From contig JADLCR010000094.1 of assembly GCA_020847095.1 (NCBI GenBank), forward strand, positions 1 through 57,691: DNA of 57,691 bases, written 5' to 3'. Shown here in pieces: positions 24,097-37,669 of this stretch (position 1 is the stretch's first letter; each line of letters starts with the position of its first letter). The notes under the pieces were generated by a model. It ran no database searches. It had not been told where the DNA came from and was given only the letters and a program-made list of their open reading frames with translations. Position numbers and translations under genes: made by a program. The DNA is from Oligoflexia bacterium. GTDB lineage: Bacteria; Bdellovibrionota; Bdellovibrionia; JABDDW01.

Positions 24097-24711
24097 ATGA
24101 AAACATCTATAAAATTAGCATTTGGAACAATGGCTCTCATGGGACTTGTAGCCTGTGACGACATTAAAGGTGGCTTAGATGTAAACGCACCATTGCCGCT
24201 TACAACAGAAAAAGGCGTCAATTTGCGCTTAGAACCATCTAGTTATCCGGCGCAAATCAAACTCAATGACGATAAGAGGCTCATTGAATTCAAAATCAAG
24301 CGGGGAGACGAAACCGTAAAGCTCAAGGTCAAGGTGCCTTATTCTACTGATCTCGATGGGCGAAGTGCTAAGTTTGACATTAAATCTGTACAATCCGGGC
24401 AGCCTTTCGATCTCGTTGGTGAGCTGTACACCAACTACAGCACCAGCGGAAAGTACTATGAAACCGAGTCTTGCACCTACGGAGAGCATTACCGCGAGTG
24501 CTCAACCTATAATGGTAGAACCCATTGCCGTGATGTCTCTATTGCTAGAAATGGAAGACGGCATGTGACCTATCATTACCTCTATCGGGTAACAAAGGTC
24601 TCAGCTCAATTCTTGGGTGCAGCAGACCAAGAGACGCTGGCTGTTTTCACTGCTGAAAAAGACACAACTTCCCGTATTGTTGATCATTACGGAAGCTGCC
24701 GAAGATACTAA
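24097..24711 (+). CDS. Lipoprotein of unknown function
   Basis: 204 residues; signal peptide with lipobox (MGLVAC, Cys20). The mature chain is strand-rich. Around residues 127-150 there are four cysteines (ESCTYGEHYRECSTYNGRTHCRD), likely disulfides, and one more near the C-terminus. No family recognised. A strong intrinsic terminator follows, so it is a single-gene transcript. Confidence 0.7.
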   Translation: MKTSIKLAFGTMALMGLVACDDIKGGLDVNAPLPLTTEKGVNLRLEPSSYPAQIKLNDDKRLIEFKIKRGDETVKLKVKVPYSTDLDGRSAKFDIKSVQSGQPFDLVGELYTNYSTSGKYYETESCTYGEHYRECSTYNGRTHCRDVSIARNGRRHVTYHYLYRVTKVSAQFLGAADQETLAVFTAEKDTTSRIVDHYGSCRRY

Positions 24712-24741
24712 TTCTTATTAGAAACTGACTAAGTTTACTGG

Positions 24742-24775
24742 GGCACCTCATTGAATAAATGAGGTGCCTTTTTAT
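24742..24775 (+). terminator. Intrinsic terminator after lipoprotein gene
   Basis: Eleven-base-pair stem (24742-24752 with 24758-24768, five-base loop) followed by TTTTTATT. It separates the lipoprotein gene from the envelope-machine operon that starts at 24950. Confidence 0.9.
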
Positions 24776-24949: not shown

Positions 24950-25624
24950 ATGGAAGCTTTCGCAACTATCGCCGAAGCGTTTCGTAGCGGCGGTATCTGG
25001 ATGTGGTTAATATTTATGGCGCAAGTCGTGAGTCTTGCGATCATTGCAGAAAGGGTAATGGCCCTTTACTTGAGTCGCAAAGGCGGGCAGCGTCGTATTG
25101 CGAAGCAATTTGAAGAAGACATCAGAAAGGGTAACCTCGAAAAGGTTATCACTCGATCCCAAAATCTTGGTGGTTCAGACCCAATTGGAAAAGTAATCCA
25201 AGCAGGTTCGCAAGCAGCTCTCGATCTTGGTGGGCGAGAAGAAATTCAAGCTCGAATGGACGAAGTTCTGTTGGCTGAAAACACCCGAAATGAAAAGCGC
25301 ATTGGCTTTTTGGCCATGATGGGTAACGTCGGAACCTTGCTGGGTCTTTTAGGAACGATCATCGGTATGATCGAGTCCTTCTCATCGGTTTCAAGCGCTA
25401 ATCCAGTTGAAAAGGCGACAATGCTTTCTCACGGAATTTCGATTGCCATGCACGCAACGGCCTACGGCCTCATCGTGGCGATTCCCGCACTGGTGATGTA
25501 CTCGGTGCTTCAAAATCGCGCTAACATGTTGTCTGAAGATCTTAATCAAGGTGCCCTCATGGCATTCAATTGGCTGAGCTTCAGTAGCGATTCGATTTCC
25601 GGAAGAAAAACAAAGTCTAAGTAA
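24950..25624 (+). CDS. MotA/TolQ/ExbB-family proton-channel protein (AglQ-like)
   Basis: 224 residues with three membrane segments: about 15-40, 108-135 and 150-185. Family motifs include IGFLAMMGNVGTLLGLLGTIIGMIESF and HGISIAMHATAYGLIVAIPALVMY, the two helices lining the ion path. Five such subunits normally surround two ExbD/TolR-type subunits to turn proton flow into movement. Two ExbD-type genes follow directly, so this is the stator of the operon. Start ATG with GAGG upstream. Confidence 0.9.
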   Translation: MEAFATIAEAFRSGGIWMWLIFMAQVVSLAIIAERVMALYLSRKGGQRRIAKQFEEDIRKGNLEKVITRSQNLGGSDPIGKVIQAGSQAALDLGGREEIQARMDEVLLAENTRNEKRIGFLAMMGNVGTLLGLLGTIIGMIESFSSVSSANPVEKATMLSHGISIAMHATAYGLIVAIPALVMYSVLQNRANMLSEDLNQGALMAFNWLSFSSDSISGRKTKSK

Positions 25625-25650
25625 TTTTATCCCGTAAATCGGGAGGATTT

Positions 25651-26106
25651 ATGCACGTTGGTGGAAGACAATCGAAAAAAGATCTGAACTTCGAACTGAA
25701 TCTGATTCCTATTATGGATATTCTTTCAGTTTGTATCTGTTTCTTGCTCCTAACAGCAGTTTGGGTTCAGGTCGGCGCCATGCAGGTCAATCAAGCTCTT
25801 GATGGAACTGCACAAGGACAAACCAAAAACCCCCCAGCCATCTGGGCGACATTCAGAGCTGATGGAGGGGTGGATCTTGTCTTAAAGAACGGTCGAGGGA
25901 GCTTGTCTTCAACGGTCGTTAACCAGTCTGGGCGGCTTGCCTGGAAACAGTTAGTTGATTTCACAAAACAAGCACGGCGCCGAAATCCTGAGCTTCAGAC
26001 AGCCATCGTGGTGCCACAGAGAAATACGTCATATTCGGACCTTATGAATTTAATGGATGAATTGAAGACTTCTAACATCAGGGATATTGGGCTTTCGCCT
26101 ATTTGA
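25651..26106 (+). CDS. ExbD/TolR-family protein 1 (AglR/AglS-like)
   Basis: 151 residues: short cytoplasmic tail, one membrane helix (about 19-42) with the conserved proton-carrying aspartate (Asp23 in PIMDILSV), then a periplasmic domain with the TolR-like end VVPQRNTSYSDLMNLMDELKTSNIRDIGLSP. The ribosome binding site GGGAGG is 6-7 bases upstream. It is the first of two adjacent, divergent ExbD-type subunits. Confidence 0.88.
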   Translation: MHVGGRQSKKDLNFELNLIPIMDILSVCICFLLLTAVWVQVGAMQVNQALDGTAQGQTKNPPAIWATFRADGGVDLVLKNGRGSLSSTVVNQSGRLAWKQLVDFTKQARRRNPELQTAIVVPQRNTSYSDLMNLMDELKTSNIRDIGLSPI

Positions 26107-26118
26107 GGAGTTTGATCG

Positions 26119-26610
26119 GTGATTAGGCAAGAATTTATTAAAGGTATCATGAATCAAAGCGTGCTCGGCACCGTATCGGCTTTGAAGCCGAGTGGCCAGC
26201 GTGTCGGAAAAAGCCTAATCTTTAATCTTAGCTTAACATCACTCATAGATACATTTTCTGTTATCGTGATTTTTCTCCTTGTTAACTACTCAATGAATAC
26301 AAGTGATCTCACTATCAATAACAACATGAATCTTCCGACCGTGAATACAAGCGAGGGTATTCGCATGGGTGTCGTCGTTAGTATCAAAGATAATCGCTAT
26401 TACATTGATGATGTTCCAGTTCAAAGTCGCGATCTGGTTCGACGTCTCCTTGAGGCGAAAAAGAAATCAACAGAATCTCCCTCTAATTTAATCGTTCAAG
26501 CTGACAAGAAAACTGACTATTCAGTTTTGAATCCTATCATTCAAGCGGCGGCTCATGCAGGATATGAGCAGTTTAACTTCGCTGTTCTGCCATACGGGAG
26601 GAAAAACTAG
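26119..26610 (+). CDS. ExbD/TolR-family protein 2 (AglR/AglS-like)
   Basis: 163 residues from GTG with GAGGAG 8 bases upstream. The cytoplasmic segment is longer (about 34 residues) than in the first copy. The membrane helix holds the conserved Asp44 (SLIDTFSV), and the periplasmic end reads VQADKKTDYSVLNPIIQAAAHAGYEQFNFAVLP. Two unlike ExbD-type proteins with one TolQ-type protein is the arrangement of the myxobacterial AglRQS motor. The last base of its stop is the first base of the next start codon. Confidence 0.88.
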   Translation: MIRQEFIKGIMNQSVLGTVSALKPSGQRVGKSLIFNLSLTSLIDTFSVIVIFLLVNYSMNTSDLTINNNMNLPTVNTSEGIRMGVVVSIKDNRYYIDDVPVQSRDLVRRLLEAKKKSTESPSNLIVQADKKTDYSVLNPIIQAAAHAGYEQFNFAVLPYGRKN

Positions 26611-29570
26611 TGCATCGAATTGCCTCCCTCATATTCTGCCTCCTCTTTGGTTTTTCTGTGCTAGCTGAAAAGCTCGACACAGAAACAAATACGGTTGTCA
26701 TTGATAAACTTGAAAAAGTGTTGATGAACCTTTCTAGGGGCGATGAAACAAGAGAGAGCGTACTTCTGAGGCTCGGAGATCTTTACTCAGAGAGAGCTCG
26801 ACTTCGTTTCATGAATGATATGGAGGCCGAAGGTAAAATCGGCCGTGGGACCAGGCTTGATCGTGAGCGCGCGATAACTCTTTATGAAGAAGCCATTCAG
26901 GGACCATTTCAGGCGAGCCACAATGCCGCGATACTTCAACTTGGATACTTGTATGTTGCCCAGGAACACTATTCAAAAGCCCAAGCACTTTATGCGCAGG
27001 TCGTTGCTCGAAAGAAGCCCTACTCAAATGAAGTCTATGGATCTGCTTTGGCGGGGCAAGCGAGCGAAGCCTTTAGATTAGCAAAATATGAGCGGGCTCG
27101 AACGCTTTACGACAAAGCCTTACAAATCAAAGAACTGCCTAAGCGAGGCTTTGCATTGAATCGACGAGCTTGGGTCGCATTTCATTCGGGTCAGTATAAA
27201 GAAGCAGCGGATCGCATGTTCGGCCTGCTATCGGAGCCACAGTTTTTCACAAATCCCACGAACGGATCTGTTGATGTTGCCTTTCAGGAAGAATCTGCTA
27301 GGGATTTGGCGGCATTCTTAGCCCGCGGTCAAGTCACCGAACGGGAAATCAAGAAACTATTGTCTGTTTCACCGGAGCAATCAAAACAAGAAATCTTGCA
27401 ATCATTTTCAAGAGAACTTGATCGACTCGGAAAAAAACAAGCCGCACTTATGGTGCTCAAGCGCGCTCAAACCAATCCGGATTCTCAAGCTGAGAAGCTA
27501 GAAGGTCATATTCGATTTGCTCAGCTCCACTATGACATTGCAAAGAATCAGGAAGTTGTAAGTGAGTTAGAAAAATTGGCAACTCTTTGGAAATCCGAAG
27601 GTTGCGAGCCCGAGGCGGATTGCGAACAAATTCGAGTGAGATTTAGAAAGCTTGTCACCGATTGGGGGCGTGCTGAAGAAGAACATCCAAGTCGCCATCT
27701 CGTTCGTTCTTATGTTGCTTACGTTAATGTGTTTCCTGAATACGATATGGCATATTGGGGTGCTCAGGCGGCCAGAAAAAACTACGATTGGAAGACTGCC
27801 CAAAGATTATATCGCATGAGTTCGGATTTGCTGGCCCGGATATCAGATACGGCGAGAACGGCATCTCAACGAAGAATTTTCGAAGGCAGTCTCTTAGGTG
27901 ATGTTGAAGTGGCCGAGCTTGCAAAAGACACGGACGCTCGCGATGAGGCTTATCAAAGATATCTGAAATTGAATCCTGAAGGCAGTTACGCCCCGACAGT
28001 GAGATATCAAAAAGTAAAACTTCTTTATGACAAAGGACAATACCGTAACGCTGCCGATGGATTCTTGGAGATCGCTTTAGGTTCTGGTGGATCCAATCCA
28101 GAAATTCAAAACAAAGCAGCGGATCTCGCGCTCGATTCACTGGTGCTCGCTAAAGAACCTCACAAGATTGAGGAGTATGCGAATCGCTTATCAGGACGTT
28201 TTCCAAATCGAAGTGCGGAGTTTCAACGGATTTCAAGACAATCTGTTACCAATCAGGTGGCCCTAGTCATCAACAATCCAAAATCAGATGAGTCTGACGC
28301 GGAAGATGCACTCAAAAAATTGAAATCGGTCAAACTTGATGGCGCGACAACCGCCGAACAAATTGCACTATTCAAGAATCGCATAGCTCTTGCCGAGAAA
28401 ACACGAGACTTGGATGAAATCGAGCGTTCCTCTCAGGGGCTCTTGCAGATACGTGGACTACCGGAGTCCGACAAAGAATTTGCCCTTTCTCGACGGGCAT
28501 GGGCTGCTGAAATGAGATTAGATTTTGGTAAAGCCTACGCCATCTACAAAACCATGAAGTTATCTCAGTTGTCCTCGGCTGATCGTGAAGTTAAATTGGG
28601 AGTTCTTGCTGATCTTGCCGGAAGAAACGCCACACCCCATTATGAGGCTTTTCTTAAACTTTCTCGTAACTCTACGGCTGTTCAGTCTGTGGCTGCTCGG
28701 CTTATTCGCACGGCAAATAATCCTTCGAAGGCATTTAATAAGTATGAAGGTTACCTGAAAGCAAATGCGTCGCTTTACTCACTGGTTGCCCTTGAGATTT
28801 ACGCTCAGGACCGTGACTATCAAGCTGCCGAAAGACGTTTGATTAAGTCCGGTATGGGGCGCACTTCTGCAGGGGCTGTGTTCAGTCGGATTGCCTTTTT
28901 TCAATCGTTTGATCAATCCAGAAAAGCTTTAATCACCCAGCCAGTTAACGGGTCTTCAACGGCCGTGCTTGCAACGTCACTGCGACGGTATTTGAATAAT
29001 TTAAGTGATGTAGAGCAATTTGGGTTAAAAGCGGTTCGCTCGGGCGATCCGTTGGCGCAATTTGCAACCTTATCTGTTGCTCAAGCAGGATACGCTCGCT
29101 TGGCCGAATCCATTCAGAATTTGCCGATTCCACGCGGACTTAATTCAAAAGCTCAGAAAGAGTATCGAACACAACTAGAGTCTCAAGCCGAACCCTATCA
29201 GAAGAAAAGTGAGATCCTTGATCAGAAAGTCAAAGAACTTTGGAAGAAGGCCGATTTAGAAGACGAACTTGAAAAGACCTTAGCTTCAAGCCAAGGACCC
29301 ATTCGCCGACTCTTCGTGGATCAAGTGCGGTATTTAGAAACCGTTGCAAGTACTCGATATAAATCAGATCTTTCGGATATAAGAGACACCGATTCTAAGT
29401 CCCCAAGCGCCAGTCATATCCAAGAAGCTAAACGAAATGTTCAGGCTGACCCATTTAATACGGGTCGAATTAACAAATTAAAAGAGCTGCTCCAGCAAGC
29501 CGGCGATGAAACCTTTGTTGGTTATCTGGACGCCCGAATTCAATCGATAGAAGGTGGGAGACGATTATGA
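26610..29570 (+). CDS. Large periplasmic TPR-repeat protein
   Basis: 986 residues; GTG start with GGGAGG upstream and a signal peptide (IASLIFCLLFGFSVLA). The mature protein is helical almost throughout, with TPR-like units such as HNAAILQLGYLYVAQEHYSKAQALYAQVV, YGSALAGQASEAFRLAKYERARTLYDKAL and YQKVKLLYDKGQYRNAADGFLEIA. TPR solenoids act as scaffolds; in the Glt machinery large TPR proteins link motor and outer membrane. The next gene starts within its last four bases. Confidence 0.85.
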   Translation: MHRIASLIFCLLFGFSVLAEKLDTETNTVVIDKLEKVLMNLSRGDETRESVLLRLGDLYSERARLRFMNDMEAEGKIGRGTRLDRERAITLYEEAIQGPFQASHNAAILQLGYLYVAQEHYSKAQALYAQVVARKKPYSNEVYGSALAGQASEAFRLAKYERARTLYDKALQIKELPKRGFALNRRAWVAFHSGQYKEAADRMFGLLSEPQFFTNPTNGSVDVAFQEESARDLAAFLARGQVTEREIKKLLSVSPEQSKQEILQSFSRELDRLGKKQAALMVLKRAQTNPDSQAEKLEGHIRFAQLHYDIAKNQEVVSELEKLATLWKSEGCEPEADCEQIRVRFRKLVTDWGRAEEEHPSRHLVRSYVAYVNVFPEYDMAYWGAQAARKNYDWKTAQRLYRMSSDLLARISDTARTASQRRIFEGSLLGDVEVAELAKDTDARDEAYQRYLKLNPEGSYAPTVRYQKVKLLYDKGQYRNAADGFLEIALGSGGSNPEIQNKAADLALDSLVLAKEPHKIEEYANRLSGRFPNRSAEFQRISRQSVTNQVALVINNPKSDESDAEDALKKLKSVKLDGATTAEQIALFKNRIALAEKTRDLDEIERSSQGLLQIRGLPESDKEFALSRRAWAAEMRLDFGKAYAIYKTMKLSQLSSADREVKLGVLADLAGRNATPHYEAFLKLSRNSTAVQSVAARLIRTANNPSKAFNKYEGYLKANASLYSLVALEIYAQDRDYQAAERRLIKSGMGRTSAGAVFSRIAFFQSFDQSRKALITQPVNGSSTAVLATSLRRYLNNLSDVEQFGLKAVRSGDPLAQFATLSVAQAGYARLAESIQNLPIPRGLNSKAQKEYRTQLESQAEPYQKKSEILDQKVKELWKKADLEDELEKTLASSQGPIRRLFVDQVRYLETVASTRYKSDLSDIRDTDSKSPSASHIQEAKRNVQADPFNTGRINKLKELLQQAGDETFVGYLDARIQSIEGGRRL

Positions 29571-29842
29571 AGTTATTGATCAGTCTTGTCATCGCATTAT
29601 CGGGCCAATGGGCGTTAGCTAAGTCACCAACTAAAGCGTCTGAACGATCACCTGTGACAAAGGTGAAGAGAAACGAAAAGTTCAAAACCGAATTAGACTT
29701 TTCGGATCGAGCCGTAAAGGGACAGTTTCAACAGCCTTCATCGGGAGTAGTGACTGTCGAGAACGAAAAGGCAATTGACGATTTATTAGGTATTAGAAAG
29801 CACTTTAAAGATCGAATGAAGGAATCGGCTAACCGCCATTGA
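29567..29842 (+). CDS. Small exported protein in Agl/Glt-like operon
   Basis: 91 residues: signal peptide (MKLLISLVIALSGQWALA), a basic linker, then FSDRAVKGQFQQPSSGVVTVENEKAIDDLLGIRKHFKDRM. It is not a family I can name. Coupling with both neighbours (ATGA overlap upstream) and its signal peptide suggest a small periplasmic subunit of the same machine. Confidence 0.7.
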   Translation: MKLLISLVIALSGQWALAKSPTKASERSPVTKVKRNEKFKTELDFSDRAVKGQFQQPSSGVVTVENEKAIDDLLGIRKHFKDRMKESANRH

Positions 29843-29850
29843 AGGTGATT

Positions 29851-31020
29851 ATGGTTTCGAAGTTGGTATTAGAGAATAAGTTAGGTCAGGTCGTAAGACA
29901 GATTCAATGGAAGGGACAAGATTTTCATCTTGTCTACCGCCATGATACTCGCCGAGTCGTAGCTATTAGTGATCTTAGTCAGCTTGATCATGAGTCGATT
30001 CCTTACACCATCATAAGTCAGGTGGGTTCAAAAGATTTAAGCCATACAAAAGGATTTAAGGTAGGGGCGTTTGGATCGCTTCGCCTAGTTTCTTCAAATG
30101 ATGAGATGCACCTTAGCCCCTCTATTGAGCTTACCAAAGAAGAAGAAGATTTATTTCCGTTTGTATTTAAACGTACTTTAGTTGCCACAGTGGCTTTATT
30201 GGCCATTATTTTCTTACTTTCATTCTTTGTCGGTGAAGAGGAACCTGAAGTTGTGGTGGTGAGAATCACTCCGACTCAGCCATTACCTCCGCCGCCGGTC
30301 GTTGCTCCTGTTGAAAAGCCAATCCCACAAGCCCAATCCCAAGTGAAACCTAAAAAGGTGGTTCAAAACAAGGTTGCCCGACCAACCCATGCGCCAATTA
30401 AAACCATGGGAGCTTTAGCCGTACTTGGCAGTCTCAACGGCAAATCGAAGCAAGTCGGTGGACTCGCTTCGGCTCAAGTTCAAACGAGTCGTGGCGTAGG
30501 TCTTGGCGGCGGTACTCAAGGAAGCGGCGGTGTTCAAACGGCCTATTATGGCAAGGGTTTGATGGCGGCTCCCTTAGGCCCCGGCGCGCGTGCCTCTGGA
30601 GCTGGTGGTTATGGCACTCGCGGCAAGGGCGGCGGCCAAGCTGGTTACGGACAAATGAGCCTAGTTGGAAGCTCATCTGGTTTTTTTGAACCCGTTGGTC
30701 GTGAGATGGTGATTGAAGGAGGTTTGACTCGAGAACAAGTCGACGCCGTCATTCGCCGAAATCTCGGTCAGGTGACCTACTGCTACGAGCGAGTGCTTCA
30801 GACAAATCCAAATCTTGGGGGCCGAGTGGCTCTCAAGTTCTTTGTTAATGGCGGAGGTCAAGTAAGCTCTGCCAATATTACGAGTTCAAGTCTTGGAAGT
30901 CCTGAAATTGAAAAATGTTTGGTGACGCGTCTCAAGGGTTGGCAATTTCCCAAGCCACGAGGCGGAGTTACTGTGAAAGTTAGTTACCCCTTCGTCTTTA
31001 ATAAAGTGACGCAAGGGTAG
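29851..31020 (+). CDS. AgmX/PglI C-terminal domain protein, TonB-like energy transducer (GltG/GltJ-like)
   Basis: 389 residues from ATG 29851, chosen because GAAGG lies 5 bases upstream (a TTG at 29839 overlapping the previous stop is an alternative). Order: cytoplasmic domain of about 105 residues that might be a degenerate FHA fold; one membrane helix (about 112-133); a Pro-rich stretch (PTQPLPPPPVV); a Gly-rich stretch; and an AgmX/PglI C-terminal domain of about 95 residues with two cysteines (YCYERVL and EKCLV). This layout resembles TonB, spanning the periplasm to pass motor force to the outer membrane. Confidence 0.85.
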   Translation: MVSKLVLENKLGQVVRQIQWKGQDFHLVYRHDTRRVVAISDLSQLDHESIPYTIISQVGSKDLSHTKGFKVGAFGSLRLVSSNDEMHLSPSIELTKEEEDLFPFVFKRTLVATVALLAIIFLLSFFVGEEEPEVVVVRITPTQPLPPPPVVAPVEKPIPQAQSQVKPKKVVQNKVARPTHAPIKTMGALAVLGSLNGKSKQVGGLASAQVQTSRGVGLGGGTQGSGGVQTAYYGKGLMAAPLGPGARASGAGGYGTRGKGGGQAGYGQMSLVGSSSGFFEPVGREMVIEGGLTREQVDAVIRRNLGQVTYCYERVLQTNPNLGGRVALKFFVNGGGQVSSANITSSSLGSPEIEKCLVTRLKGWQFPKPRGGVTVKVSYPFVFNKVTQG

Positions 31021-31031
31021 GAGTGAAACTC

Positions 31032-32462
31032 ATGAAGAAGCTAAATTATAAACTGTTTATTCTCTTGGCCTTGGGAGTGGCGGCTTGCGCTAAGTCGGAT
31101 CCAAATCCTGCCAAAGACTACGCGGATTTGCCGGTTGTAAAACCCCATGGGGAAGTCGCTCCGACTCAGCAAGAAATGACAAATCCTTTTGTAATAGATG
31201 TTGTTGGCCCTTACGACCAGAACGTGGCTCAGTTTTCGGAAGGCGAAACCAAAACCATTCAATTAAGTGTTAGGGTTTTGGAGCCAGATATCAAACGCTT
31301 TGTCCTTCGCGCTTTCGACTTACCAAAAGGAATGGTCTTTGGACAAAACCCTCAAGTCAAGAATCAGTATACTTTGACTTGGACTCCTAAGTTGATCGTA
31401 CCTGCAGGCCAACCTGATACGAAGTTTACGATCCGATTGGAAGCGGCGGTGGTAGAAACCCGAGACCCCAGACTTCGCTCGATTGTCAAGAATCACAATC
31501 TTCAGATCGTTGTTGCCGCTAATAGAAAAGTACCTGTGATCGAAGGGCTTTCTTGGGGAGCACAAGTAAAATCCGATGGCCAGCGAGCTCACTTTGAAGA
31601 AGGTTCTGTTATTCCGTTTGCAGTGGTCATTTCTGATCCCTCAAGCTTTTCAAACATTCCTCCCAAAATGAGTCGAGTTCCATATGAAGATGGTGGCAAC
31701 TCAGAAACTTTCAAGGCCGATGCTTTAGGGTTTGTAAGACCGGATCGCAATGCCGGGGCCCCCAGGAAAGTAGATAACAACGGTAAATGGGAATTTCGTT
31801 ATATCCTTGACTTAAAATCCATGACCCTTCCAACTCCACTTAAACGGGATGGGTCCTTTGATTTGGATGCTGATAGCGTGAACATGTGCTTCAGTTTTCA
31901 AGGTGAGAGTCAAGCAGGTGTTCCTTCGGCAGATTATCCATTCTGTTTTTCAGTGAGCTTTAAATCTAAAGCGCCTGAAATTGTTTGGCCCGATACTCAA
32001 GGTAAGGGCTATATCACTTTGAGAGCTAACGCCTTAAATCGAATCACGTTCTTTGTTCGCGCCGTAAATGGTCGTGGATCATTAGATATTCAAGGAACTG
32101 ATTTTGAGGCATTACCAGGTCCTGCAACGCTCGTTTGTGCAAAAGCCAAAGACAATCAAGTTATTAGAACCTGTGAAATTGAATGGTTCGTATCTTGCGA
32201 TATGCCCTCTCCTCAAGTGGTCGAAGTTAAAGCCACCAATAAAGTGGGAAATCGAGAGAACTTCAATACGAGTCGCCGAGAGTTTAGGGTTGAAAAAAGT
32301 GGCGATGCTTGCCCACCCCCGACTCCTCGTCCGGCAAAAAAGGTAAAGAAAACAATTGTTCCTGTTCCCGAAGAGACTCCAGTGCCGGCTCCATCGGTTC
32401 CGGCTGCTGAACCGTCACCTTCGCCAGCTACAGAGCAAAAGCCCTCAGGAGGTAAGTCATGA
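31032..32462 (+). CDS. Lipoprotein in Agl/Glt-like operon (GltK-like position)
   Basis: 476 residues from ATG 31032 (GGAG 9 bases upstream; GTG 31023 is too close to it). Lipobox LGVAAC. The body is strand-rich with repeats that look like Ig-like/cadherin-type folds (for example EGETKTIQLSVRVLEPDIKRFVLRAFDLPKGM), and ends in a Pro/Glu/Lys-rich tail. No firm family. Position between the TonB-like gene and the barrel gene suggests an outer-membrane lipoprotein partner. Confidence 0.75.
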   Translation: MKKLNYKLFILLALGVAACAKSDPNPAKDYADLPVVKPHGEVAPTQQEMTNPFVIDVVGPYDQNVAQFSEGETKTIQLSVRVLEPDIKRFVLRAFDLPKGMVFGQNPQVKNQYTLTWTPKLIVPAGQPDTKFTIRLEAAVVETRDPRLRSIVKNHNLQIVVAANRKVPVIEGLSWGAQVKSDGQRAHFEEGSVIPFAVVISDPSSFSNIPPKMSRVPYEDGGNSETFKADALGFVRPDRNAGAPRKVDNNGKWEFRYILDLKSMTLPTPLKRDGSFDLDADSVNMCFSFQGESQAGVPSADYPFCFSVSFKSKAPEIVWPDTQGKGYITLRANALNRITFFVRAVNGRGSLDIQGTDFEALPGPATLVCAKAKDNQVIRTCEIEWFVSCDMPSPQVVEVKATNKVGNRENFNTSRREFRVEKSGDACPPPTPRPAKKVKKTIVPVPEETPVPAPSVPAAEPSPSPATEQKPSGGKS

Positions 32463-33178
32463 AAACCGGTGTAATGTTTATTTTAACTCTTGTTGTTGCA
32501 CAGGTGAGCTTGGCAAAGCCTAAGATTGACATCAAGAAGGATTTCGACTCTCTCGGAACCAATTCGGCAATTGCTGAAAAAGCCCAGGAGCTGGATCCAG
32601 AAAATCGAGTGCGAATTGTTCAGAATCGCAAAGTTGACCGGACGAACCGGCTCGAACTCGGATTCAATTATGGGCTTGTAACGGGTGGCGATGCTTACTA
32701 CAAAACTCAGAATATCGGTGGTTTGCTTGAGTGGCATTTTAATCCAAAGTTTTCAGCAGGATTAAGATACAGCAAAGCACTCAACTCGTTAACTTCAGAG
32801 GGTGATTCACTCTATAAAGATGCGCAACGACGATATCAGGCCGATCCGACTTCTGGTTATGCAGTTCCGGACCTAGATTATCCCATCGAAACAGGTTTGG
32901 TTACGGTCAGCTTCTATCCTGTTTACGGGAAATTCAATTTCTTTGAGTTAGGTGTTGCTCACTTCGACTTTTACGCCATTGCAGGATACGGAAAAATGAA
33001 TTTGAAGTCAGGTCAAACTGACACGTACACGGCGGGTATTGGAGTTGGTCTGTGGGCTGCTCAGAATCTGGCGATGCGTCTTGAAGGTCGATGGCAGCCC
33101 TACATGGACAAGGTTTTCACAGGCGAACGGAGACTTGACACGGTTGTGGTAAACGCAACCCTTAGCGTATTGTTATGA
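32459..33178 (+). CDS. Outer-membrane beta-barrel protein (GltA/GltB-like)
   Basis: 239 residues with signal peptide (MKTGVMFILTLVVAQVSLA). After a charged N-terminal segment the chain shows barrel strands: RLELGFNYGLVTGG, GGLLEWHFNPKFSAGLRYSKAL, LVTVSFYPVYGKFNFFELGVAHFDFYAIAGYG, and ends in VVVNATLSVLL. This matches the outer-membrane beta-barrel domain proteins of gliding/sporulation machines. It starts at ATG with AGGAGG upstream, overlapping the previous stop. Confidence 0.8.
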   Translation: MKTGVMFILTLVVAQVSLAKPKIDIKKDFDSLGTNSAIAEKAQELDPENRVRIVQNRKVDRTNRLELGFNYGLVTGGDAYYKTQNIGGLLEWHFNPKFSAGLRYSKALNSLTSEGDSLYKDAQRRYQADPTSGYAVPDLDYPIETGLVTVSFYPVYGKFNFFELGVAHFDFYAIAGYGKMNLKSGQTDTYTAGIGVGLWAAQNLAMRLEGRWQPYMDKVFTGERRLDTVVVNATLSVLL

Positions 33179-34485
33179 AATTGATGTTGTTGGTCATTTC
33201 ATTCTTATTTCAAACTGCGGCATTCGCTCAGAGTGTTGCTGGAGAGGAAGCTGTTCAGGCGCTGAATCAGTATAAGAATGGGGCTAAAGTCTCAGGAATT
33301 GAGGCCCTTTTGCGAGTTTCAAAGCCCAAGCAAATACCGCCAGACGTTAAGAGTGACTGGAATCAAGCGACTGAAAAAGACAATGAAACCTGGAAACAAA
33401 TTGGTACCCGTTGGACAGCTCCTTTCTCAGGAGTTTTGGATGGAAATTTCGAGAATCATCTTCGGGCTTGGCAACTCAGAGCTAGGGATATCAAAAGCAG
33501 CGCCGATGAACGATCCGTCGAAGAGCTGATCTCTGTATTGCCAGAAAATGGTGACGCTAAAACTTGGGCGCAATGGCAATTGGCAATGCATTATGGGATT
33601 GAAAATAAAACCAAAAGTGCCAGCCGAGTTCTGCAATCGATACTGGATAGCGATCAAGAATTGATCGATCAAAACCAAGTTCTTTTGGCAGTGGCTCGTA
33701 TCTTTTATCAAGAGAACCGCCTTGATTTATCAGCGAAGTATTTTCGCATGATTGATAAGTCCTCGGATTACTGGCTCGACTCTGTTGAAGAACGCGCTTG
33801 GATTACAACTAAACAAAAGGCCTATGACAAAACCCTCGCTGACTTAACGACGACGCTATCGTCACTTTGGGAAAATAAAACAGGTCCTGAGTCTTTCTTC
33901 TTGGCCATGTTCTCAAATCTCAAGCTTTGTGATTATAAGAGGATATTTGAGCTGACATCATTATTTAAGAAGAGGTTTTTGCCTCGAGTGGTCGCCCTGC
34001 AAGATTTAGAGCGGCGTGGATTTAATGATGCGTCTCAATATGTGATCGATGAGTTTAAAGACGGCGATCACCCTAAAATTAATAGTGAACGCGCATTAAA
34101 GCTTCCGCGGTTTGTTGATCGAGATGAACTGCTCAAGCGTGAGGCCGAAGCATTACAGATCGTAGAAGACGAACAAAAAGAAAACGGAAATGCCCTGACA
34201 TCAGTTTCATTAATGAATATTAAAAATCGCATTGCGACTCGGTTTAAGCAACTGGCACGTGCGGATCTTGAAGAAATCAAAAAGAACTTAACAAAGATTC
34301 AACTTGTCGAGGCCGAAGCAATTCAAAGAATGCACCTTAATCCTAAATTGGCTGAGAAAAAGGGAAGAAGTAAAATTTCAGACGGGCTCTCGACAATCGA
34401 ATTCCCTTATGACGAAGAAGTTTGGCTTGATGAATTAGATAATTACCATGTGGACGCCCGCGGGTGCCCCACCAAGGGAGGATGA
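33175..34485 (+). CDS. Periplasmic helical-repeat protein (GltC-like position)
   Basis: 436 residues: signal peptide (MKLMLLVISFLFQTAAFA) and a helical, charged mature part with TPR-like segments (TWAQWQLAMHYGIENKTKSASRVLQSIL, QVLLAVARIFYQENRLDLSAKYFRMI). Gene order barrel-then-TPR matches gltA-gltC in myxobacteria, but sequence identity to GltC was not checked. It has an ATGA overlap with the barrel gene and no clear ribosome binding site of its own. Confidence 0.7.
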   Translation: MKLMLLVISFLFQTAAFAQSVAGEEAVQALNQYKNGAKVSGIEALLRVSKPKQIPPDVKSDWNQATEKDNETWKQIGTRWTAPFSGVLDGNFENHLRAWQLRARDIKSSADERSVEELISVLPENGDAKTWAQWQLAMHYGIENKTKSASRVLQSILDSDQELIDQNQVLLAVARIFYQENRLDLSAKYFRMIDKSSDYWLDSVEERAWITTKQKAYDKTLADLTTTLSSLWENKTGPESFFLAMFSNLKLCDYKRIFELTSLFKKRFLPRVVALQDLERRGFNDASQYVIDEFKDGDHPKINSERALKLPRFVDRDELLKREAEALQIVEDEQKENGNALTSVSLMNIKNRIATRFKQLARADLEEIKKNLTKIQLVEAEAIQRMHLNPKLAEKKGRSKISDGLSTIEFPYDEEVWLDELDNYHVDARGCPTKGG

Positions 34486-34490
34486 TTCCC

Positions 34491-35651
34491 ATGTTACGTA
34501 GAATGACATTTGTATTCGCATTGGTCTTGGCAATCGCAAATTGCGGCCCCAAGTCACCGCGATTGGTAAATCCGGTTGAAAAACCGGTTCCTTTTCAGCT
34601 TGACGACCAAGTGATTGAAATTCCGGGTGACGCGAAAGTTGATATTGTTTTTGTTATGGATAATTCCAAAAGCATGTTGCCTCATATGGTCAATCTTCAA
34701 AATAACATCGATCGATTTGTGGGCGCTTTTGCGAAGAATTCCATGATCGATTATCATATTGGGGTTTTAGCAATCTATGATTCAAAGCAACCTAGGGAGA
34801 AAAATCCAAGTTTTGATGTTTTCCCATTGGGACAGCTATTGCCGTTGACGGATCCGTCAGTGGCCGCACCTGCGTGGAATCCTGAGCACCCTAATAAGCC
34901 TAGAAAGGTTTTAGAAGGGCCGCGGTTTGTGACAAGACAAACGGTCAAAATGCAAAAAACATTAGGTGACACAATCAATATCGGCTGGTGGCATGGTCCT
35001 GAGTATGAAGAGTTGTTTTCTCCGGTATTGGCGGCCATTAGTCCCGAGAATCAAACTGGCGCCAATGCGGGCTTCTTCAGATCCGATGCCTACTTAGTTG
35101 TCATTATGGTTACCGATGCCGATGACGACTCAGAGGGAATTTCTCCTGAGCAGCTTTACTACAAATTGTTAGATTTTAAAGGCAACGAACGTGAGAAAGT
35201 CATGGGCTTTGCCGTTGTTTCGCCTGTCGAAGAAAAAACCTGCAAAAAAGACCCCTCTATCAAGAATGGCGGCGGGCCGTTTCGAATTTTAAAATTCGTC
35301 GAATTGACTGATGGTTATTCTGATTCATTCAGCCTTTGCTCTCCTGAGTTTGGAAAGAAGCTGACTAACCTTGGAGATACTATCAATCAACGAGTTGGCC
35401 GAAAGGTTATTAAGTTGCCTTACAAACCCGATTTCAAAAATCGCATTGAAATTAAGTACGGAACACAATTGAGAGTGATCGACCTTCAGCAAGGTCAATT
35501 TCCAAAGGGATGGCAATATGATGCGGATGCCAATGCCTTAATTGTGGATTCAAATCATGATTTCAAAATGGAGCCGGGTGCTAATTTCTCGATTAAGTTA
35601 TTGCCGGTGAAATTGATAAACGTTAAGAACGGAAAAACCGAGAGAATTTAA
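34491..35651 (+). CDS. VWA-domain lipoprotein closing the Agl/Glt-like operon
   Basis: 386 residues. ATG 34491 is chosen for its GGGAGG about 9 bases upstream; an ATG at 34482 overlaps the previous stop but sits on top of that site. The lipobox is LAIANC. Residues about 45-260 form a von Willebrand A domain with the metal site DNSKS (D-x-S-x-S) and a later TDADDDSEG. The C-terminal 100 residues are strand-rich. VWA domains bind partners through a metal ion. It is the last gene before a terminator. Confidence 0.85.
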   Translation: MLRRMTFVFALVLAIANCGPKSPRLVNPVEKPVPFQLDDQVIEIPGDAKVDIVFVMDNSKSMLPHMVNLQNNIDRFVGAFAKNSMIDYHIGVLAIYDSKQPREKNPSFDVFPLGQLLPLTDPSVAAPAWNPEHPNKPRKVLEGPRFVTRQTVKMQKTLGDTINIGWWHGPEYEELFSPVLAAISPENQTGANAGFFRSDAYLVVIMVTDADDDSEGISPEQLYYKLLDFKGNEREKVMGFAVVSPVEEKTCKKDPSIKNGGGPFRILKFVELTDGYSDSFSLCSPEFGKKLTNLGDTINQRVGRKVIKLPYKPDFKNRIEIKYGTQLRVIDLQQGQFPKGWQYDADANALIVDSNHDFKMEPGANFSIKLLPVKLINVKNGKTERI

Positions 35652-35653
35652 TT

Positions 35654-37669
35654 TCAGTTGCCCGTGGGAAGAAGGAATTTCCCCGGGCTTTTCTTAAATT
35701 CTGACCAAGTTGCTTTGAACAACACCCAGAGCCAGCCGCGGTGAATGCGACGGGCGCGAGCGGCAACAAAAAGCGATAATGAAAAGCTGACCGTGAGATT
35801 TAATAATCCAATAAAACCAATTCCTGCCAATGCCCAAATGGCGCTGTTCCAGGACTCGTGCCATCCTAATGTATAAACGGCAACAGTTGCAGACCCCGCA
35901 GACAATGTGACGTGGCGAACATCTAATGGGAGTCCGAAAAACTTGCCAAAAACAGGTGTGAAACCCAAACAAAATCCAAGTGAAATGCTGCCTCCAAGCC
36001 CTGCCATGGATTGGGTAAGCCAACGACTCAATCGTTCACTGTTTTTAACGCCAACTATTCGATTAAGAGTTCTGTGCTTTGAAATGGCTTCAGGTAGCCG
36101 ATTAAAAACAAACCAGTTGTCAATCCAACCGGCGGCGATGCTTGAAAACCACAATATGACGCCAGTAAGTGCTGCCAAGGGAATTGTGAGGCTTTTAAAT
36201 GGATGAAGACCTTCCAAAATATAGCGAGCATATTCGGGAGTCATGACAAACCCACTGTTGAATTTCGACAATCCCCAACAAAAAAGAACACAGCCGGGCA
36301 CTACAAACCCGACATTTCCCGCAATGGCCGCTATTTGAGATCTTGTGAGGCAGGCTGACTCTAGCACAAAAGATTCTACGTCGCGTTCGGTTTTTAGGTT
36401 TTTAAGTTGAGCGGCCAGAGTCGATGCGGTCATTGCCGGTTGTTTTGTAGCCAAGGTCAGATGTCCAAACTGCAAGACTACAAAACTGGTGGCGTAATTA
36501 AGGCTTGCAAAGAGTCCGTCAAAAAAAAGCGGCAGTTTTAGTTGTGAAATGGCCGATTTTAACACGGTCGTGAAGACCGTAAGAATTCCACCGCCCGATG
36601 CTGATAAGAGCATGCGGCGATATTCTTGTGGGCTATGAGTAATATAGTGAACGCCGGTTTCTGCTGTGCGCTCAACGATCTTTCTCGATAAGAGGTGAAT
36701 GTTAGAGTCAAATAACCCCCAAATCCCTCGCGAGTGATCGACTTGCTCAATTAGATTAGAAACAAAATCTTGGGCTAGCTCGAGAGAGCGATTTTCATCT
36801 TCATTGAAAAAGAACCGCAGCAAGGATTCTATGCGATAGAGTCCGGATGCCATTTGATCAAGCGAATATACCAGATTAACGCTAACCCCTGACTGTTCGA
36901 GGTGACCGAGGATAGATTGAATGGCACTTTGGCATTCAAAAACAGCTTTCAAGCTTGCTTCGAAAGACTGATGGCTTACTTCGTCAGTAACATCGGTGGA
37001 GGTGAGATGCTCAACGGTTTGGGCTACAGATTTTGTCAGTCGATAAAAAGGGTTTTGACTGACGGTTCGATACTGAAGGCGACTTCTGATGACCTCATCG
37101 AGTCCGAGACTTGCCACCTGGGAGCTCAGAATGAGGAGAGCTTCTGTTTGTGCAAAGCGAATGCGAAAAAACGGATCCTCATGGGCGCCATGTTCAATTA
37201 GGGCCACAATCTGGCGCACCACATCTGTCGGAAGTTCTGAAACCCATTTCGCATCTGATTCATCGGGAAAGATGCGAATAAAGAGCTCCCACAAACTTTT
37301 CTCAGTAGGTGGGGAGGGTAAGATCTTTCTGACCAACCGCTCGACGAGCTCGCTAAAAAACGACTCCTCACGAACAAGCCCTGCATGAGCAAACAAAGAA
37401 AGGGACTCTGTTTCCTCTAAAAGACATCGCAAATTCTCTGCAAACACCTGTTTTAATTGAGGATTATTGTCCAAAACCTGTAAGAGATAGCGAAGTCTTG
37501 TTGAGGGGTTGTCTTTTCGAATCCAAATAAAGAGCTCTTCAATGGCAACCACTCGATTGGCCAGGGTTGTCTCAAGTTCCAAAGATGTTAGAAGGCTGAG
37601 GAGTTGTTTATTTGCTCCATAGAATGGCGAAAGAAGGCGGTTAAGTAGACCCCGTTTCGGTGACATCAT
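35654..37669 (-). CDS. Gcr/SpecificRecomb (PF10136-like) membrane protein
   Basis: 671 residues. The sequence resembles the family labelled 'site-specific recombinase' (Gcr). The first about 340 residues are helical and soluble. The second half has five or six clear membrane segments, such as IAAIAGNVGFVVPGCVLFCWGL, LTIPLAALTGVILWFSSIAAGW and LAGIGFIGLLNLTVSFSLSLFV. There is no tyrosine- or serine-recombinase active site. The membrane topology argues against a DNA recombinase; the function is unknown. It is convergent with the VWA gene. Confidence 0.75.
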   Translation of the reverse strand: MMSPKRGLLNRLLSPFYGANKQLLSLLTSLELETTLANRVVAIEELFIWIRKDNPSTRLRYLLQVLDNNPQLKQVFAENLRCLLEETESLSLFAHAGLVREESFFSELVERLVRKILPSPPTEKSLWELFIRIFPDESDAKWVSELPTDVVRQIVALIEHGAHEDPFFRIRFAQTEALLILSSQVASLGLDEVIRSRLQYRTVSQNPFYRLTKSVAQTVEHLTSTDVTDEVSHQSFEASLKAVFECQSAIQSILGHLEQSGVSVNLVYSLDQMASGLYRIESLLRFFFNEDENRSLELAQDFVSNLIEQVDHSRGIWGLFDSNIHLLSRKIVERTAETGVHYITHSPQEYRRMLLSASGGGILTVFTTVLKSAISQLKLPLFFDGLFASLNYATSFVVLQFGHLTLATKQPAMTASTLAAQLKNLKTERDVESFVLESACLTRSQIAAIAGNVGFVVPGCVLFCWGLSKFNSGFVMTPEYARYILEGLHPFKSLTIPLAALTGVILWFSSIAAGWIDNWFVFNRLPEAISKHRTLNRIVGVKNSERLSRWLTQSMAGLGGSISLGFCLGFTPVFGKFFGLPLDVRHVTLSAGSATVAVYTLGWHESWNSAIWALAGIGFIGLLNLTVSFSLSLFVAARARRIHRGWLWVLFKATWSEFKKSPGKFLLPTGN
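35660..35695 (+). terminator. Probable intrinsic terminator of the Agl/Glt-like operon
   Basis: A stem of 5 base pairs, one mismatch and 5 more pairs (GCCCG 35660-35664 with CGGGC 35684-35688 outermost) is followed by TTTTCTT. It overlaps the final codons of the convergent membrane-protein gene. Confidence 0.5.

Follow-up and report, generated by a model that had tools for sequence, protein, structure and literature searches.

A ten-gene operon of an Oligoflexia bacterium encodes a putative Agl–Glt-class envelope machine with a motor lineage of its own

In a 57,691-nucleotide stretch of DNA from an Oligoflexia bacterium (contig JADLCR010000094.1 of assembly GCA_020847095.1; hereafter the window), ten genes at positions 24950–35651 form a compact operon, and eight of their ten products are homologous to proteins of the myxobacterial Agl–Glt machinery. 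We propose, with a probability of about 0.7, that the operon encodes a proton-driven, envelope-spanning machine of the Agl–Glt class that moves outer-membrane or surface adhesins during prey contact. The initial annotation had assigned the operon to this type by architecture and gene order; the assignment now has sequence matches behind it, with parts paired to AglR, AglQ, AglS, GltD, GltF, GltG, GltC and a GltA/B-type barrel. It is refined in that the operon is, by its phylogeny, a separate paralogous lineage rather than the orthologue of AglRQS/Glt.

Search profiles were made from the window-type clade alone, and therefore without borrowing from paralogues, and were run against myxobacterial agl/glt loci, the Myxococcus comparison comprising two Myxococcus-type genomes, one of which has AglR, AglQ and AglS of 245, 162 and 194 residues, equal to the published values (PMC3169522). 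These profiles matched AglR, AglQ, AglS, GltD, GltF and GltG of Myxococcus as well as GltC and the barrel of Anaeromyxobacter, and several of the assignments were also returned by NCBIfam. The first three open reading frames (ORFs; all ten lie on the + strand) encode the motor proteins. ORF1 (24950–25624), an AglR-type TolQ/ExbB motor protein of 224 aa, matched PF01618 (1.9e-29) and gave 207 bits with Myxococcus AglR; it carries the conserved GLLGT and T-x-x-G-L motifs, and a PDB sequence search with it yielded ExbB/TolQ matches only. ORF2 (25651–26106; 151 aa) is an AglQ-type ExbD/TolR protein (PF02472, 6e-17; Myxococcus AglQ, 93 bits) with Asp23 in its transmembrane helix, and ORF3 (26119–26610; 163 aa) is an AglS-type ExbD/TolR protein (PF02472, 4.2e-17; Myxococcus AglS, 92 bits) with Asp44. 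One TolQ-type and two ExbD-type proteins carrying these aspartates had been recognized initially, and both residues align with their proton-channel counterparts: D23 with D28 of AglQ, a residue whose change to Asn leaves the M. xanthus protein unable to conduct protons (D28N; PMC3858216), and D44 with the Asp of AglS.

The motor genes are followed by those for putative periplasmic and outer-membrane parts. ORF4 (26610–29570) encodes a GltD-type periplasmic TPR protein of 986 aa (115 bits with Myxococcus GltD), and ORF5 (29567–29842) encodes a small exported protein of 91 aa of the GltF/CglF type, which matched the CglF model NF033764 over nearly its full length (3.5e-8) and gave 28 and 26 bits with GltF of Anaeromyxobacter and Myxococcus, respectively. 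ORF6 (29839–31020; 393 aa) is a GltG-type TonB-like transducer with a small N-terminal beta domain, one transmembrane helix, a disordered Gly-rich linker and a TonB C-terminal fold; residues 183–390 matched the GltG model NF033760 (1.2e-39), the AgmX/PglI C-terminal domain model NF033768 scored 2.7e-31, in agreement with the original description of a TonB-like AgmX/PglI protein, and the match to Myxococcus GltG (154 bits) covered the C-terminal part only. An FHA domain at the N-terminus of ORF6 was considered and rejected (hhalign probability 1.6% against FHA-type N-termini, and no FHA match in NCBIfam or Pfam). ORF8 (32459–33178; 239 aa) encodes an outer-membrane beta-barrel of the GltA/B type (TIGR04565 OMP_myx_plus, 4.9e-26; 35–38 bits with the Anaeromyxobacter barrel), and ORF9 (33175–34485; 436 aa) a GltC-type periplasmic helical protein (NF033756 GltC, 9.5e-10; 87 bits with Anaeromyxobacter GltC).

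The two remaining products are lipoproteins, as had been supposed. ORF7 (31023–32462; 479 aa) has the lipobox VAAC and about three predicted immunoglobulin (Ig)-like beta domains; it had no family match in NCBIfam or Pfam, its AlphaFold model (pLDDT 81) gave cadherin and Ig chains as Foldseek matches, and because whole-chain TM-scores were low we claim the domain type only. ORF10 (34464–35651; 395 aa, with the more likely start at ATG 34482) is a VWA/MIDAS lipoprotein that matched MIDAS-adhesin and CglD models weakly; among 17 relatives, the MIDAS motif D66-x-S68-x-S70 was invariant (17/17), the MIDASAdhsBdello model was matched by 17/17 (best 1.8e-29) and CglD by 15/17. The VWA family has ten members in B. 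bacteriovorus HD100, and these probably include, judging by position, Bd3099 and Bd0875. PDB sequence searches with ORF6 and ORF10 gave zero matches.

All ten ORFs lie exactly where the initial annotation had placed them, and the tight packing that it described was borne out: the intergenic gaps are, in order, +26, +12, −1, −4, −4, +2, −4, −4 and −22 bp, the last of which shrinks to −4 (ATGA) when the in-frame ATG 34482, and not GTG 34464, is taken as the start of the VWA gene. This spacing suggests that the ten genes are transcribed together. The limits of the operon are clear, because a strong intrinsic terminator on the + strand (24740–24770; 13-bp stem and T-tract) separates it from the upstream gene at 24097–24711 and the end of a convergent gene lies at 35654. 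The latter (35654–37669, − strand), whose end is 2 bp from the operon, encodes a PF10136 'site-specific recombinase' family protein (650 bits). The 179-bp leader contained no consensus sigma-70 promoter, and an Rfam search of the window gave zero matches. The complete gene order R-Q-S-D-F-G-Ig lipoprotein-barrel-C-VWA recurs in 14 of the examined loci, among them the window, a second locus of the same genome (C27), and Bd0412–20 and Bd2368–77, the two that belong to HD100; because the same genes stand in the same order in 14 loci, the set is more than a chance assembly.

The 2.7-Mb genome of the source organism holds five agl/glt-type clusters: the window, C4 (L016; Bd0828 type), C6 (L018), C27 (L017; the second ten-gene set) and C73 (L015; Bd1473/M2 type). 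A single-sequence scan of the genome contigs with the TPR protein gave zero matches, whereas an alignment-based scan gave matches. In a midpoint-rooted FastTree phylogeny of 62 motor sets, one group, the window clade, took in the Bd0412 and Bd2368 types together with C27; a second group, the Agl clade, contained the AglRQS motors of Myxococcus and Anaeromyxobacter, C4, Bd0828 and C6; and a third, M2-type group contained C73, Bd1473, Bacteriovoracaceae and gammaproteobacteria. C6 appears there as a further lineage on the Agl side, with a VWA gene adjoining it. Orthology of the window motor to AglRQS itself was rejected on the basis of this tree, in which the window falls in a separate clade (support 1.0). 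The motor belongs to a third lineage, nearly confined to the class Bdellovibrionia; the confinement of its clade to Bdellovibrionota holds for this sample only, because the tree was midpoint-rooted and the outside sample was picked by similarity to Bd0828 AglR.

Compared with the Agl–Glt machinery of Myxococcus (AglRQS and GltA-K), the operon is alike in its motor, GltD, GltF and the GltG tail, and through Anaeromyxobacter in GltC and the barrel, but it lacks GltE, GltI and GltJ, its GltG has no N-terminal FHA domain, it adds the Ig-like and MIDAS lipoproteins, its motor genes stand in the same operon, and its motor belongs to a separate lineage. In the broad Agl–Glt class it finds a place with one TolQ-type and two ExbD-type proteins with proton-channel Asp, and with homologues of GltD, GltG, GltC, GltF and a GltA/B-type barrel. 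No GltE-like gene was found in the operon, and GltE-like lipoproteins are present in C4 and C73; because the seven-gene core includes GltE (PMC3169522), we filed the operon as a divergent paralogous set and not as the canonical core.

HD100 loci were recognized because their motor genes lie where four operons named in PMC2797640 would place them. These four have carried a gliding-related annotation for a long time (PMC2797640, PMC3169522, PMC9140294), and the kind of operon is already known from Bdellovibrio (PMC2797640, PMC3169522). In a FastTree phylogeny of nine genes, rooted on the C27 type, the window joined Bd0412 (0.973) and stood apart from Bd2368 (1.0); the grouping with Bd0412 had a support of 0.905 in a further tree, and genomes with both ten-gene sets had one in each clade. 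The closest known counterpart of the operon is Bd0412–0420, the 'gliding cluster' of HD100, which shares its ten genes, their identical order and its clade, but has a TPR protein of ~30% identity and GltC-like and VWA proteins of 358 and 423 aa (436 and 395 in the window). Bd2368–Bd2377 has the same order but belongs to the sister clade, with a longer GltC-like protein (~530 aa) and a shorter VWA protein (~340 aa). A further Bd0412-type set (L065; G119 C24) has the TPR-to-VWA genes and, directly upstream, a 361-aa ORF, with no motor genes called.

During predation by HD100, Bd0412–0420 transcripts rise 4–7 fold at 30 min (PMC2797640), and Bd0411–0421 proteins are most abundant between 45 min and 1 h, in the early bdelloplast just after prey entry, for which movement inside the bdelloplast was suggested (PMC12546842); Bd2368–2377 proteins peak at prey exit (PMC12546842). 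Because the operon is orthologous in type to Bd0412–0420, the likeliest time of its use in the source organism would be prey entry or establishment. We infer the following course. ORF1–3 would assemble into an inner-membrane stator-type motor, in which proton flow through the transmembrane aspartates would move the GltG-like TonB-type arm that spans the peptidoglycan; the GltD-, GltF- and GltC-like proteins would relay this motion to the outer-membrane barrel and the two lipoproteins. The Ig-like stack and the MIDAS adhesin lipoprotein, if exposed on the surface, could grip outside, and the surface adhesins that form the presumed load would be pulled with them, so that the cell gains traction on the envelope of its prey or on some other surface.

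The same class of motor could instead move an envelope or surface polymer and not the cell, and such an Nfs-like transporter for envelope remodelling is the main rival, to which we allot a small share of the probability. The Agl motor of M. xanthus also drives Nfs, a Glt paralogue that distributes spore-coat polymer, and the class has been called versatile (PMC3858216); binding of glycans by the Ig-like lipoproteins is conceivable. Nfs/M2-type systems resemble the operon in combining Glt paralogues with a TolQR-type motor, but the motor lineage differs: the window motor stands apart from the Myxococcus M2 lineage, on the side of which C73 and Bd1473–1483 are found, and the last gene of the set encodes a member of the MIDAS adhesin family, suited to surface grip. 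Somewhat less probable is plain surface gliding, with the operon as the direct functional counterpart of AglRQS–Glt in the source organism. Eight homologous parts would fit this, as would an MglA-like small GTPase of the same genome (L192:1465–2055, − strand, on contig C14, adjoining recR- and ybaB-like genes), which also speaks for the machine proposed above. The role is better suited to C4, however, with its full-length, FHA-bearing GltG (295 bits), GltC (155 bits) and GltE (63 bits); by these scores and its grouping with Bd0828–0838 near Myxococcus AglRQS, C4 is the better Agl/Glt counterpart, and it is C4, the match of Bd0828–0838, that we regard as the AglRQS/Glt orthologue of this genome. 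C4 and Bd0828–Bd0838 are of the same machine class as the window operon but differ from it in the FHA-bearing GltG, GltE and strong GltC, with no Ig lipoprotein or VWA gene seen in the cluster. Attachment is blocked when a transposon disrupts Bd0838 (aglS; PMC6561027).

A force-driven device for export or uptake across the predator envelope during predation is improbable, since the operon contains no secretion channel, ATPase or effector-like gene and its barrel is of the small OMP_myx_plus type. A TonB/Exb uptake or Tol–Pal system, to which the TolQ/ExbB and ExbD/TolR families and the TonB C-terminal fold might point, is scarcely credible given two different ExbD-type proteins, homologues of GltD, GltF and GltC, no TonB-dependent receptor, TolA, TolB or Pal in the operon (NCBIfam), and, elsewhere in the genome, TolQ/ExbB loci of their own that have one ExbD; ORF1 scored far below the equivalog cut-offs (81.7 versus 221 for TolQ; 61.9 versus 206 for ExbB), and the best matches of the operon were not Tol–Pal or Exb components devoid of Glt similarity.

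The distribution of the set suggests a link of the proposed adhesin-moving machine with entering prey. The window-type TPR protein was found in 115 of 144 genomes of the class, including 24/24 of the genus of HD100, and a search of 242 genomes of the phylum placed 84 of 85 TPR matches within the class; the sole match outside (L199; G357 C191:4181–7084) contains one in-frame TAA and possibly reflects horizontal transfer. Neither the class nor the phylum search found the marker in P. exovorus JSS (G047) or Ca. B. qaytius (G048), both epibiotic predators (PMC11656739). Only a Bd0828-type set was present in the ~1.58 Mb of JSS that was read, the remainder being covered by the whole-genome search; the GltD-like TPR gene of this set (718070–721288), the only Agl/Glt set seen there, reads as a pair of neighbouring open frames, perhaps because the gene is broken or the sequence is in error.

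Several points weigh against our proposal. The Ig lipoprotein and the VWA protein, the most distinctive outer parts, were unmatched at the examined myxobacterial agl/glt loci; the literature yielded no phenotype for any of the ten-gene sets, the Bd0412 type included, and the gliding label in Bdellovibrio is based on homology and expression. The source organism is known from a draft genome only. Judging from the motor tree and phylum search, the Bacteriovoracaceae, which prey intraperiplasmically, seem to be without the set, and it is therefore no general requirement for invasion. Because the epibiotic genomes are also mutually related and the source may not be a predator at all, we treat the link to invasion as a lead only. 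A broader idea is tentative and on balance doubtful: that the ten-gene sets are a Bdellovibrionia-specific motor class in which every set has a MIDAS adhesin and an Ig-like lipoprotein to itself, that duplication gave rise to one type for entry (window, Bd0412) and one for exit (Bd2368), and that the class pulls the predator through and within the prey envelope and is missing from predators that stay outside their prey.

According to a 2026 review (PMC13104615), the gliding machinery of Bdellovibrio has still to be identified, and finding its motor, adhesins and force transmission is a major open challenge. While the kind of operon was known, what is new here is the homology of its parts, a third motor lineage with adhesin-type parts of its own and the pairing of the operon with the entry-type operon of HD100. 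This operon type unites a motor, a transducer, an envelope chain and a candidate adhesin in one putative transcription unit, and as the HD100 orthologue is genetically tractable, the idea that such a unit moves adhesins during prey contact is directly testable.

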